The position numbers were made by a program, and so were the translations under genes. Of a stretch of DNA of 64,000 bases, positions 25,930-46,797 are shown piece by piece. This DNA is from Desulfonauticus sp. Lineage in GTDB: Bacteria; Desulfobacterota; Desulfovibrionia; Desulfovibrionales; Desulfonatronovibrionaceae. Position 1 is the first letter of the stretch; each line of letters begins with the position of its first letter. Location: positions 1 to 64,000 of the forward strand of contig JAUZRP010000002.1 of assembly GCA_030950395.1 (NCBI GenBank). Direction: 5' to 3'. Below the pieces are notes generated by a model that made no database searches, was not told the DNA's origin, and saw only the letters and a list, made by a program, of their open reading frames with translations.

Positions 25930-26253
25930 AAATTTTAGATCTCCTGCTAATAAATTTTTAACTGAATTTTAATGGGAACAAAAAGTTGCACAAGATGATC
26001 ACTCCTCTTGGTAGTTCATCTGACCTGAAATCACAGTCTTTTGAGAGACGATGAAGGCCCCTCCAATCATAAAGAGAGGTTCCGATAGATTCCGGATGAA
26101 ATTGAACACTATCTATTTGAAACTCCTTAATGAGTCAAGTAACGCAACATCTAATTCCCATTTTTTTACCATAAATTTCTCCTTGTTTGACATTATTGTC
26201 TATCAAATGTATTTTTCCAGACTTAAATAATAAACAGCTAATCTGAGCGATTT
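25930..26253. other. Gene-free stretch containing the right inverted repeat and an orphan gene start
   Basis: No full gene. GTAACGCAACA lies at 26139-26149. Just beyond, on the minus strand, AAGGAG, a six-base spacer and ATG at about 26172 open MVKKWELD, which then runs into the repeat and stops within 20 codons. This looks like the 5' end of a gene interrupted at the repeat; whether it belonged to the PIN gene whose tail is at 22655-22859 cannot be told. Confidence 0.45.
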
Positions 26254-31337: not shown

Positions 31338-31613
31338 TTAACTATTTATAATATCTTTTAATTCTTTACCAGCCTTAAAAAAAGGCAATTTTTTGGGAGG
31401 AACATTTATTTTCTCTCCTGTTTTAGGATTTCTACCTACATATCCGGGATATTCTTTAATTTTAAAACTGCCCAAACCTCTAATCTCCACCCTTCTTCCT
31501 TCTACCAAAGCATCTTTCATAAGACCAAAAAAAGAATTCACAATAAAACTCGCCTCTTCCTGACTTAAATTCTTATCCTCTGCCAGTTTGTTAATAAGAT
31601 CACTTTTATTCAT
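31338..31613 (-). CDS. HU/IHF-family DNA-binding protein
   Basis: 91 residues from ATG at 31613, chosen because GGGGGAAG lies upstream; the frame extends to 31628. Typical histone-like fold with 'MNKSDLINKLAE', the beta-arm region GLGSFKIKEYPGYVGRNPKT and the closing PFFKAGKELKD. The beta-arm Pro and 'GRNPkTGE' are conserved. IHF-beta-like features (RGLGSF) suggest nucleoid organisation and DNA bending. Confidence 0.93.
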   Translation of the reverse strand: MNKSDLINKLAEDKNLSQEEASFIVNSFFGLMKDALVEGRRVEIRGLGSFKIKEYPGYVGRNPKTGEKINVPPKKLPFFKAGKELKDIINS

Positions 31614-31737
31614 ACCAACTTCCCCCATTCCTAAAATTCAAAAAACTAAAACCCCCTCTCTTAAACCCAAGCTTCTCATCCATCTAAAAACTGTCTCTTA
31701 AATCAAATACTTCCCAAAACTTTTGCTAAAAACTGAT

Positions 31738-43113: not shown

Positions 43114-44322
43114 TTAATCAAAAAGCAAGTTAAACATTATTCTGGCATCGTTTAAAGTGTTGGTAATAGATGAACATTCATTCGGTTGGTGGGCAAAACC
43201 CAATAAAGAGGACCAAACTGCTGTAGAATAACCTCTCTTTCTCAAAACAGAAGCAACTGTGCCTCCACCTATACCTACACATCTGGCTTCTTGTTGTAAA
43301 ACCTTTTTAATAGCCCGTTTTAATTTTCTCACAATCAAATCATCTTCTTTGGTGGGACAAGCGGCCTGCTCCTGAAGCACAATCTCGTATTGAATAGAAA
43401 CATTATATTCATCTTCTATTTGTTTCCCTATTAACTTTACTTCTTGTAAAACTCTATCCAGGGGATAATCAGGCAACACTCTTGCATCTATATAAAAAAC
43501 GTCTTTACCAGGAATGGTATTTATGTTGTCAACATTGCTTTCTTTTTTAGTAGGATTAAAAGTAGAATATGGAGGGCAAAATAACTTATCTTTTTTAGGA
43601 AAAATACGATGTAATTTAGACAATTCTAAGATAAAAGCTGAACAAGCAACAAGAGAATTAACCCCTTTATCAGGTACAGAGGCATGACACTGCTTCCCCA
43701 CTACCGTAACCTTTAACCAGAACATACTTTTTTCGGCAATTTCAATCTCCAAACCAGAAGGAACACCATAATCAGGAACTAAAAAAAGATCATTTGAAGA
43801 AAAAATCTCTGCCTGCTGCTCCACTAAAAAATTCAAACCATATTTACTACCTGTCTCCTCATCAGCAACAAACACTAATCCCAAAGAATAATCAGGCACT
43901 AAATTTTGCTCCTTTAGCGCCTTTAAAACCAATAAAGAAGAAACTATGGCCTGATTATTGTCTTCAACTCCCCGTCCGTAGAGCAAATCGCCTTCTACTC
44001 GTAAATCAAAAGGATCACTTTCCCATAAAGAAATATCTCCCTCTGGAACAACATCCAGATGAGAAATAATCCATAATATTTGTTCTCTTTTGCCTTTATA
44101 AATAGAAATAAGATTAGGTCGTTGGCCAGAAGAAACTCTCTGATCTAAGGCATTAAAAAATCTAACCTCAAGACCAAAGTTCTCTTCTATATAGGTAGCT
44201 AGATATAGGGCCTTTTCTTGCTCCCCATCTCCTCCATTTTCAGGAGACATAGCTACCCTTTGGACTAACTCTTTTTGTAAAGCAATAACACTATCTCTAT
44301 AAGACGATATTATCTTGTCCAT
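43114..44322 (-). CDS. M20-family metallopeptidase (dipeptidase/deacylase type)
   Basis: 402 residues with the two-zinc M20 framework: SHLDVVPEGD near residue 89, GRGVEDNNQA near residue 113, VADEETGSKYGL near residue 149 (catalytic Glu-Glu) and a C-terminal His in LLGFAHQPNECS. A dimerisation domain is inserted at about 190-300. The 'M20 family metallo-hydrolase' group covers Xaa-His dipeptidases, ArgE, DapE and DapE-like enzymes; its substrate cannot be fixed. DapE is a possibility given the lysine pathway here, but motifs are not specific. Confidence 0.88.
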   Translation of the reverse strand: MDKIISSYRDSVIALQKELVQRVAMSPENGGDGEQEKALYLATYIEENFGLEVRFFNALDQRVSSGQRPNLISIYKGKREQILWIISHLDVVPEGDISLWESDPFDLRVEGDLLYGRGVEDNNQAIVSSLLVLKALKEQNLVPDYSLGLVFVADEETGSKYGLNFLVEQQAEIFSSNDLFLVPDYGVPSGLEIEIAEKSMFWLKVTVVGKQCHASVPDKGVNSLVACSAFILELSKLHRIFPKKDKLFCPPYSTFNPTKKESNVDNINTIPGKDVFYIDARVLPDYPLDRVLQEVKLIGKQIEDEYNVSIQYEIVLQEQAACPTKEDDLIVRKLKRAIKKVLQQEARCVGIGGGTVASVLRKRGYSTAVWSSLLGFAHQPNECSSITNTLNDARIMFNLLFD

Positions 44323-44375: not shown

Positions 44376-44663
44376 CTACCTGCCCCTTGCAGCTCTTTTA
44401 GAAGCCTTTAATGGGTTCACCTTTACCTTTCCTTCGTTATCTACTACCGCCTTCACATGTGTAGCAAAGTTACAAGCTTTATGAACCCATTTTACTGCAG
44501 GTTCTGGAAAACTTAAACAATATTTTTCTCCAGAAAATTCTTTAATCCTTTCACACCCTTCACATTGCTCTACTACAGGATAACACCTGCCATCTTTATA
44601 AGAGCAACCTTTAGAAGTCATAAAAGCACATTCAAAACCTGGCCTTATAGTTGTACATTTCAT
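44376..44663 (-). CDS. PxxKW-family cysteine-rich protein
   Basis: 95 residues from ATG at 44663, preceded by GAGGAGG; the frame extends to 44702. Eight Cys are arranged in CAFMTSKGC, CYPVVEQCEGC and YCLSFPEPAVKWVHKAC, the last bearing the PxxKW motif that names this small family of sulfate-reducer proteins. Probably binds metal or Fe-S; function unknown. Lies 20 bases after the HesB-like selenoprotein and is probably co-transcribed, suggesting a shared Fe-S or metal role. Confidence 0.85.
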   Translation of the reverse strand: MKCTTIRPGFECAFMTSKGCSYKDGRCYPVVEQCEGCERIKEFSGEKYCLSFPEPAVKWVHKACNFATHVKAVVDNEGKVKVNPLKASKRAARGR

Positions 44664-44683
44664 TATAAATCCTCCTCTCAAAA

Positions 44684-44986
44684 TTATCCGCAAGAAGAAC
44701 AAGAACTACAACTTCCTCCTGTTGAGGGTAAGCTAGATTGCACTACAAACCCCATTTCATTTAAATCTACAACAAACGGAGCCGCACTATCAAATAAAGT
44801 TTGTTCAACCAAAAATGTAAAACCATCTACGTCAAAAACTTTATCGTTTTCTTTTTGCTCATCCAGAGCAAGTGCCAAACGCGGGCCACCTCAACCAGCA
44901 GCCAAATACACCCTAATAGGTGATTTTTCCTGTTGTGCAAAATAACGCTCTAACTGTTCCTTTGCCCTTTTTGTTACAGTAAACAA
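44684..44986 (-). CDS. HesB/IscA-like selenoprotein (UGA decoded as selenocysteine)
   Basis: 100 residues including Sec32. Translation starts at TTG 44986 behind GGAGGTG with a seven-base spacer: MFTVTKRAKEQLERYF, then RVYLAAG-U-GGPRLALALDE, ending GGSCSSCSSCG. The in-frame TGA (44893-44891) falls exactly where HesB-like proteins of this type have Cys or Sec, and both sides keep family sequence, so this is recoding and not a nonsense mutation. A hairpin fitting a bacterial SECIS lies 19 bases downstream. HesB-like selenoproteins are known in sulfate reducers; they are IscA-fold, possibly Fe-S or redox proteins. A track starting after the UGA (44878) gives only the C-terminal 64 residues. Confidence 0.88.
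44855..44871 (-). promoter_or_regulatory. Candidate bacterial SECIS hairpin
   Basis: On the minus strand TTGCTC-TGGAT-GAGCAA forms a 6-bp perfect stem with a five-base apical loop containing UGG. Its 5' end is 19 nt after the UGA of the HesB-like gene, within the spacing used by SelB-dependent SECIS elements. Confidence 0.7.
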
Positions 44987-45216
44987 AATTAACACCTCCA
45001 ATTAAAAATAAAGGATACATAACTAAACTTTATTTATGATTTTGTCAAATTTTTAACCAGCCTGTTCGAAAAAATAATCGACACTTGTATCAGAACCAAC
45101 ACGTAAGTTCGTCCTCTAACAGATAGCTATAACTTCCATTTACTCACAAATTTATACTGACAACCTCTAAAATTTCAGAGAAAAATTTATCTCTCATCCC
45201 CTTAAATGTAGAGGGA
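44987..45216. other. Intergenic stretch upstream of the selenoprotein operon
   Basis: No gene is supported. It should contain the promoter of the HesB-PxxKW pair (reading leftward) and the end of the RluD-CoaE gene. No clear terminator hairpin or tRNA was seen. Confidence 0.35.
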
Positions 45217-46797
45217 TTATAACTTAATTGCCAACAAGCATTTACCAGCCAGATCTTGTAACTTTTTCTTATACTTTTTGACCTTAAATCTCCTTAAAAT
45301 TTTTTTTAAACTATGCACCCGTTTTTTTAACAAGGCAATATCTCCGCTATTATCTAAAATAAAGGCACATTTGAGAAATTTTTTCTCCAACTGCATTTGC
45401 CAGCTATCTATCTGAACAATTTTTTCTTCAGACCATCCTCTAGCCAAAAGAGCTTGCTTTCTTAGGACCTCAGGTCTAAAAATTCCCACCAACACTGTGG
45501 GAAATGGTTCTGATGTAAAGCTCCCTTCCAAATAAGCAGGTATATCTCCCACAATCAAAGCATATTTTCTATGTTGTCTTACAAAATCCAGCCACTTGCC
45601 AAAAACTATAGGATAGATTTGTTTTTGCAATTCTAATCTCCAATTTGAAATTAAAAGATAATTAAACAAAACATTTTTATCTACCTCTCCCTGATCATTT
45701 AAAATATTATCTCCAAACAATCGTCTCAGAATAAAATAACCATCTCCATCTTTTTGATACAAATTATGCACTACTTTATCAGCTTCAAAAAACTCATCCA
45801 CCAACATTTTGGCCACCATAGTTTTTCCACTGCCAGGAAGTCCTTGTAAAATCACAATAAGAGGCTCTTTTAAAAGAAACAACAAGGCTCTTTTAAAATC
45901 TGGTGGCAATTCACTTCTAAAAGTTCTAACTTTTCCGTCTCTATAAGGGAAACTCAAAAAAGCAGCATGCAACATCTGACGTTGAACAAGTTTTTTTAAC
46001 AACCTCTCCCTTGTTCCAGATCCAGTTATTTCTCCACCATAAACTTTATCTCCTAAAATAGGATGGCCTATAAACTTAAGATGTACTCTAATCTGATGGG
46101 TGCGACCAGTAAAAATTTGCACCTGCAATAAACTATATTCTCCATCTGTCCACAACACCTTATAAGCGCTTTTGGCGATCTTGCCTTTTTTTTTTACAAC
46201 AGCCATCTTGGTCTTGTTTTTGGGATCCCGGCCGATAAAGGTCTCAATCACCCCTTCTTGTTTGTCTAACTTACCTTTTACCAAGGCCAGATAAATTTTA
46301 GAAACTTTTCTAGAAGAAAATAAGTCTGACAAATATTCCCTTGTGCTTTCTTTTAAAGCAACCACAAGCAGGCCAGTAGTATCTTTGTCCAAACGGTGGA
46401 CAATGCCTGGTCTTTCTCCAGAAATATTTTTTAATTGGGGAAAATGATAAAGTAAAAAATTAACCAGAGTACTATCTTCAATAGATGCTCCTGGATGGAC
46501 AGCCACATAAGGAGGTTTATCTACAACTATAAAGTCTTCTTCCTCATGAATTACATTAACGTTTCCCTTTACTGATTCCAGCTGATTAACAGGCTCTGAA
46601 AATCTAAATGTTATAATATCTCCAGATTTCAACCGATAGGAAGACTTTAATTGAACCTTTTGGTTAACCTTGCAACAACCCTGCTTTAATTGCTTAGTAA
46701 TTTGACTTCTAATAACACCTGTTTTTTGACTCAAAAATACATCAAGACGAATTCCCTGATCCGATTCTGAAACTTCATATCTCTCTATATTATTCAC
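45217..46797 (-). CDS. Fusion of RluA-family pseudouridine synthase and dephospho-CoA kinase
   Basis: 526 residues. N-terminal half (1 to about 310): an S4 RNA-binding domain (RLDVFLSQKTGVIRSQITK) and an RluD-type catalytic domain with HRLDKDTTGLLVVAL (catalytic Asp) and FTGRTHQIRVHLKFIGHPIL. C-terminal half (about 315-526): a CoaE-like P-loop GLPGSGKTMVAKML, FEADKVVHNLYQ and EKKFLKCAFILDNSGD. The first makes pseudouridine in 23S rRNA, the second makes CoA. The CoaE P-loop reads GLPGSGKT, where stand-alone CoaE has GxxGsGKS. Such a fusion has been annotated in Desulfovibrio-like genomes as far as I recall. No second coaE is in view. Confidence 0.88.
   Translation of the reverse strand: MNNIERYEVSESDQGIRLDVFLSQKTGVIRSQITKQLKQGCCKVNQKVQLKSSYRLKSGDIITFRFSEPVNQLESVKGNVNVIHEEEDFIVVDKPPYVAVHPGASIEDSTLVNFLLYHFPQLKNISGERPGIVHRLDKDTTGLLVVALKESTREYLSDLFSSRKVSKIYLALVKGKLDKQEGVIETFIGRDPKNKTKMAVVKKKGKIAKSAYKVLWTDGEYSLLQVQIFTGRTHQIRVHLKFIGHPILGDKVYGGEITGSGTRERLLKKLVQRQMLHAAFLSFPYRDGKVRTFRSELPPDFKRALLFLLKEPLIVILQGLPGSGKTMVAKMLVDEFFEADKVVHNLYQKDGDGYFILRRLFGDNILNDQGEVDKNVLFNYLLISNWRLELQKQIYPIVFGKWLDFVRQHRKYALIVGDIPAYLEGSFTSEPFPTVLVGIFRPEVLRKQALLARGWSEEKIVQIDSWQMQLEKKFLKCAFILDNSGDIALLKKRVHSLKKILRRFKVKKYKKKLQDLAGKCLLAIKL

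Follow-up and report, generated by a model that had tools for sequence, protein, structure and literature searches.

A predicted HesB-like selenoprotein gene in Desulfonauticus sp. with a SECIS-like hairpin conserved across three phyla

Results

Gene layout at the locus

We analysed a 64,000-nucleotide stretch of a Desulfonauticus sp. contig (JAUZRP010000002.1, positions 1 to 64,000; hereafter the window), in which a HesB-like selenoprotein gene had been predicted at 44684-44986. These coordinates are correct, and the gene lies on the minus strand, which the original prediction did not give (Table 1). The frame comprises 100 codons, from a TTG at 44986-44984 to a TAA at 44686-44684, with a single in-frame UGA. 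The predicted UGA at 44893, the TTG start with a Shine-Dalgarno sequence and the hairpin 19 nt 3' of the UGA are all borne out, as is family sequence on both sides of the UGA, since the alignment to the NF038090 profile spans protein residues 2-95.

Table 1. Features of the selenoprotein locus in the window
Feature	Position	Strand	Remarks
Predicted HesB-like selenoprotein gene	44684..44986	minus	100 residues, TTG start, TAA stop; NF038090, 104.9 bits
In-frame UGA, putative Sec32 of the UxGP motif (U-G-G-P)	44891..44893	minus	TGA at this site in relatives
SECIS-like hairpin UUGCUC-UGGAU-GAGCAA	44855..44871	minus	6-bp stem, loop UGGAU; 19 nt 3' of the UGA
Shine-Dalgarno sequence GGAGGTG	44993..44999	minus	6 nt 5' of the TTG; from sequence
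PxxKW / DUF6811 cysteine-rich protein	44376..44663	minus	ATG at 44663; NF038144 and PF20657
402-aa gene, next downstream	43114..44322	minus	Same syntenic block; present at 14/16 family Sec loci

The standard-code ORF listing shows only a C-terminal fragment of 64 residues, which starts with the TTG at 44878. The claim that standard calling misses the gene holds to this extent; however, a curated model, NF038090, exists for the HesB-like Sec family, and the family is therefore not unknown to annotation. The plus strand carries a 126-aa ORF (44565-44945) antisense to the selenoprotein gene, and a length-based ORF picker preferred it to that gene. In a 526-aa ORF at 45217-46797 (minus strand), an RluD-type pseudouridine synthase (S4, PseudoU_synth_2) is fused to a dephospho-CoA kinase domain (CoaE). 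The 402-aa gene downstream is, by its sequence, presumably an M20-type peptidase. Near the selenoprotein gene, a consensus promoter scan gave 3 sites against 2.1 expected and a terminator scan gave none against 0.4 expected.

Two other frames in the window, 31393-31698 (plus strand) and 25961-26206 (minus strand), contain a single TGA and are clear of longer ORFs. Neither has a Pfam match above the cut-off, and we therefore claim no second selenoprotein in the window.

Family membership

For the family profile searches U was read as C. The score of the window protein against NF038090 (IscA_HesB_Se) lies above the curated cut-off of 85 bits, and the match in the genome search reaches 98.1 bits. 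The protein stays below the cut-off of the HesB_rel_seleno model TIGR01911 (37.9 bits, cut-off 66.35) and narrowly misses that of Pfam Fe-S_biosyn (26.2 bits, cut-off 26.3). The IscA and ErpA equivalog cut-offs are far off (TIGR02011, 18.1 versus 150.6 bits; NF010147, 21.1 versus 117 bits; NF033940, 18.7 versus 65 bits).

Residues U32-G-G-P35 match UxGP, the motif given for HesB-like selenoproteins in the accessible text of PMC13188914, with the UGA at U. In an alignment of 31 chosen sequences ten columns are invariant, including the Sec column (written as C) and those of the motif's G and P, and C93 is nearly so. Like most of the NF038090 matches listed for the phylum sample, which carry exactly one TGA, the window gene has a single TGA; its product differs from most Desulfobacterota members in being one residue shorter just before the Sec, and from NF038090 members in its longer CxxCxxC tail.

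Conservation of the UGA codon and descent of the gene

Across 77 hits (loci L023-L098, including the window's own copy, L098), the codon at the Sec site is TGA in 66, TGC in nine, TGG in one and TAC in one, and the TGA codons span three phyla. Of the 395 genomes that make up the phylum sample, 220 have NF038090 matches at E<=0.001 and 168 pass the cut-off. Within the window's own family, which we label Desulfonatronovibrionaceae after its member L053, matches occur in 16 of 18 genomes; of the 19 copies, 16 have TGA and three have no stop. In two HesB-like ORFs from Deltaproteobacteria, L055 and L058, the Sec site is taken by Trp (TGG) or Tyr (TAC), and no UGA occurs.

Relative to a same-genus copy (L144), dN and dS are 0.114 and 0.81 over the 30 codons before the UGA, the only codons on which the upstream test rests, and 0.129 and 0.99 over the 68 codons after it. 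In all 15 comparisons nonsynonymous changes are proportionally fewer than synonymous ones both before and after the UGA, with dS saturated in many of them.

In a tree of 74 rows and 107 columns, many forks of which are weak, Desulfonatronospira stands closest to the window protein (99/92), followed by Sec and Cys copies from the same order (98/93). Judging from this nesting, the gene is inherited vertically within its order. Horizontal acquisition from Bacillota, considered on account of an identical 17-nt hairpin, was rejected on the same grouping.

Sec (TGA) and Cys (TGC) HesB copies lie side by side at L047, L051, L052, L025, L026, L027, L034, L078 and L083. Such twins occur in several separate branches of the tree (the Desulfovibrionales-like family f2, family f16 and Clostridium), and the hairpin is missing from the Cys members of these pairs, which could serve as backups independent of selenium or as mixed-oligomer partners.

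A SECIS-like hairpin conserved in register

Each sequence was compared with 300 synonymous recodings for a hairpin with a stem of at least 4 and a loop of 3-8 with an early G. Such a hairpin beats recoding (p<=0.05) in 59 of 63 distinct TGA sequences versus none of the nine TGC copies, and for the window gene 0/300 recodings yield an equally stable one. Overall minimum free energy separates the groups poorly, beating recoding in 21/63 TGA and 2/9 TGC sequences. L055, which has no UGA, still scores as having the SECIS-like hairpin (p 0.017).

Across the 63 TGA sequences, 374 of the 378 cells of stem pairs 1-6 contain a standard pair; shifting the 3' strand by 1-3 bases lowers this to 96-220. 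At pair 5, 32 sequences have T-A and 30 have G-C; at pair 3, 51 have C-G and 12 have T-A; the loop is TGGAT in 57. Desulfobacterota, Bacillota and Atribacterota all have the hairpin at the same spacing from the UGA, with stem pairs that have changed on both sides. At loci L140-L185, a set that re-includes the window (L149) and probably L053 and L054 (as L152 and L155), all 42 TGA copies keep 5-6 of the six pairs and all 26 TGC/TGT copies keep at most four. Because the LALDE-type stretch is encoded by most Cys copies as well, the stem is no by-product of the protein sequence. The SECIS prediction proposed as a check on the gene thus yields a hairpin that is conserved in register and absent from the tested Cys copies.

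Pair 5 of the window's stem is T-A, as in most Bacillota and Atribacterota sequences, while its family f2 relatives have G-C. Since the gene appears to be inherited within its lineage, we infer that this T-A looks like a separate paired change.

With wider flanks the folding z-scores are not significant (-0.72 and +0.32), and the case therefore rests on the comparison with relatives; the 24-nt core alone gives -2.61. Rfam at gathering scores returned zero matches within the window.

Selenocysteine machinery

The original prediction held that a genome without selA, selB, selC and selD would make the UGA a plain nonsense mutation. The genome that contains the window (2.2 Mb, 172 contigs, 96.87% complete) has all four, each above its cut-off: the tRNA-Sec gene selC (86.2 bits; ARAGORN agrees, anticodon TCA), selB (398.2 bits), selA (600.7 bits) and selD (331.1 bits, with one in-frame TGA). 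The TGA in selD lies near the gene start (around 1501-1560 of locus L018, genome G000, contig C107), and because of it selD is itself likely a selenoprotein gene.

No selA match was obtained in at least five genomes with a TGA copy (G042, G069, G170, G272 and G388), perhaps owing to incomplete assemblies. In four family f72 genomes (G187, G211, G316 and G334) HesB lies about 1.5-1.7 kb from selA. A HesB-selA operon was rejected because an opposite-strand transporter-like gene separates the two in G187, the genome inspected.

Predicted fold

The AlphaFold2 model of the window protein, with U modelled as C, has a pLDDT of 84.0 and a pTM of 0.70, with the tail (residues 90-98) below 50. Its best structural match is E. 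coli IscA (1s98; Z 11.6, rmsd 2.6 over 90 residues, 17% identity), followed by SufA (2d2a; Z 10.9) and DsrR (2k4z; Z 10.5, rmsd 4.4); identity across these matches is 17-22%. The fold is thus predicted to be IscA-like. In a sequence alignment, U32 falls on the conserved Cys of AQ_1857 (1nwb), an A-type-fold protein. The window protein is thus set beside IscA, SufA, ErpA and DsrR by its predicted fold. A C-terminal CxC is typical of A-type carriers; the window protein ends in CxxCxxC (C93, C96, C99), and it scores under the NCBIfam cut-offs for IscA and ErpA.

The PxxKW neighbour

The gene that starts 20 nt past the selenoprotein stop codon, on the same strand, encodes a PxxKW protein with eight cysteines (NF038144, 125.9 bits, cut-off 40; PF20657, 134 bits, cut-off 35.8). 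In the window's own family PxxKW adjoins all 16 Sec copies and none of the three Cys copies, so that HesB-PxxKW synteny is family-wide. Outside this family it stands beside 0/91 HesB loci (30 from L023-L052, 34 from L055-L088 and 27 from L159-L185), within flanks that measure about 1.5 or 3 kb and in some cases stop at a contig end. Conversely, among 30 PxxKW loci from the phylum search, HesB is nearby only at the window's own. The peptidase-like gene downstream is also kept at 14 of the 16 family Sec loci, the other two lying near contig ends; because it travels with HesB-PxxKW, block synteny may suffice as an explanation.

Of the 395 genomes, 177 have both HesB and PxxKW, 43 HesB only, 95 PxxKW only and 80 neither (odds ratio 3.5, Fisher p 3e-8, uncorrected for relatedness); we give this co-occurrence no weight because relatedness is uncorrected. 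Clustering the neighbourhoods of 20 larger regions, the window and 36 contig loci revealed no widely common cluster near HesB, and no conserved HesB neighbourhood was found outside the window's own family. The largest cluster (13 loci) is an antisense ORF over HesB itself.

Discussion

The window almost certainly carries a genuine HesB/IscA-like selenoprotein gene, in which the hairpin would direct reading of the UGA as selenocysteine and the product would have an IscA fold. The prediction of a selenoprotein is thus supported, by the Sec machinery in the genome and by a UGA and hairpin conserved in relatives. Because the HesB-like selenoprotein family is already in print (PMC1794560, PMC9312934, PMC13188914), the gene is a sound further example of this known Sec-using family and no new kind. 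As far as the accessible text of these sources goes, the published family shares the UxGP motif and a single Sec with the window protein, is known from Desulfovibrio and other Deltaproteobacteria, and includes paralogous Sec and Cys forms; two reviews index it by TIGR01911, whose cut-off the window protein does not reach. In Methanococcus maripaludis, an archaeon, a HesB-like protein is a selenoprotein by mutagenesis and 75Se labelling, and its disruption mutant is unimpaired in nitrogen fixation (an unpublished observation quoted in PMC11097638, in its accessible text). It bears the same family name and is set beside the window protein here by its description. The literature searched, as far as accessible, contained no paper naming PxxKW, DUF6811, NF038090, IscA_HesB_Se or NF038144.

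In the mechanism that we favour, SelB and tRNA-Sec would decode the UGA as selenocysteine during translation, with insertion directed by the hairpin, a role strongly supported by the comparison with relatives. The product would be a small IscA-fold protein in which Sec32 aligns with the first conserved cysteine of A-type carriers. Together, this residue and the flexible, cysteine-rich tail (C93, C96, C99) may then bind an Fe-S cluster or a metal; alternatively, they may carry out selenol/thiol redox chemistry, in what would be a strict anaerobe.

That the UGA is instead a real stop, and the gene a plain nonsense mutation or pseudogene that yields fragments only, would fit the 64-residue standard-code ORF that follows it. 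This is highly improbable in view of the TGA at the same codon in most hits from three phyla, the conserved hairpin, dN well below dS on both sides of the UGA and the full Sec machinery in the genome. A far more serious alternative accepts the selenoprotein and assigns it selenol/thiol redox chemistry or metal detoxification in place of Fe-S carriage. A 2026 review, in its accessible text, anticipates a redox function for most prokaryotic selenoproteins that are still uncharacterised, and both the CxxCxxC tail and the scores far under the IscA and ErpA cut-offs would suit such a role; against it, the nearest solved folds are IscA, SufA and DsrR, and an A-type-fold protein has a conserved Cys where the window protein has Sec. 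We regard this alternative as quite possible, if somewhat less probable than not, and a redox role as a close rival. The likeliest role, from the modelled fold and the alignment, would be that of an A-type-like carrier or metal binder with Sec in place of a ligand cysteine.

The original prediction also saw in the PxxKW pairing a hint of a shared Fe-S or selenium-linked role. The pairing stands for every Sec copy of the window's own family and fails at all 91 loci examined outside it. That the two proteins form a working pair in this family would accord with the presence of PxxKW beside the family's Sec loci and not its Cys loci, the short same-strand gap and the cysteines of PxxKW, but the HesB loci elsewhere do without PxxKW in their flanks, many genomes have one gene and not the other, and block synteny with the peptidase gene suffices; we consider a working pair unlikely. 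More doubtful still is the idea that Sec HesB of this family works only with PxxKW, in a two-protein module for handling metal or selenium of which the Cys forms have no need.

In the reading that we prefer, the gene would confirm a selenoprotein that standard-code ORF calling cuts short. Its family offers a clean comparative demonstration of a SECIS element, with the same 6-bp stem and spacing in three phyla and their loss in cysteine copies, and the genomes with adjacent Sec and Cys copies provide a natural comparison for the function of HesB-like selenoproteins.
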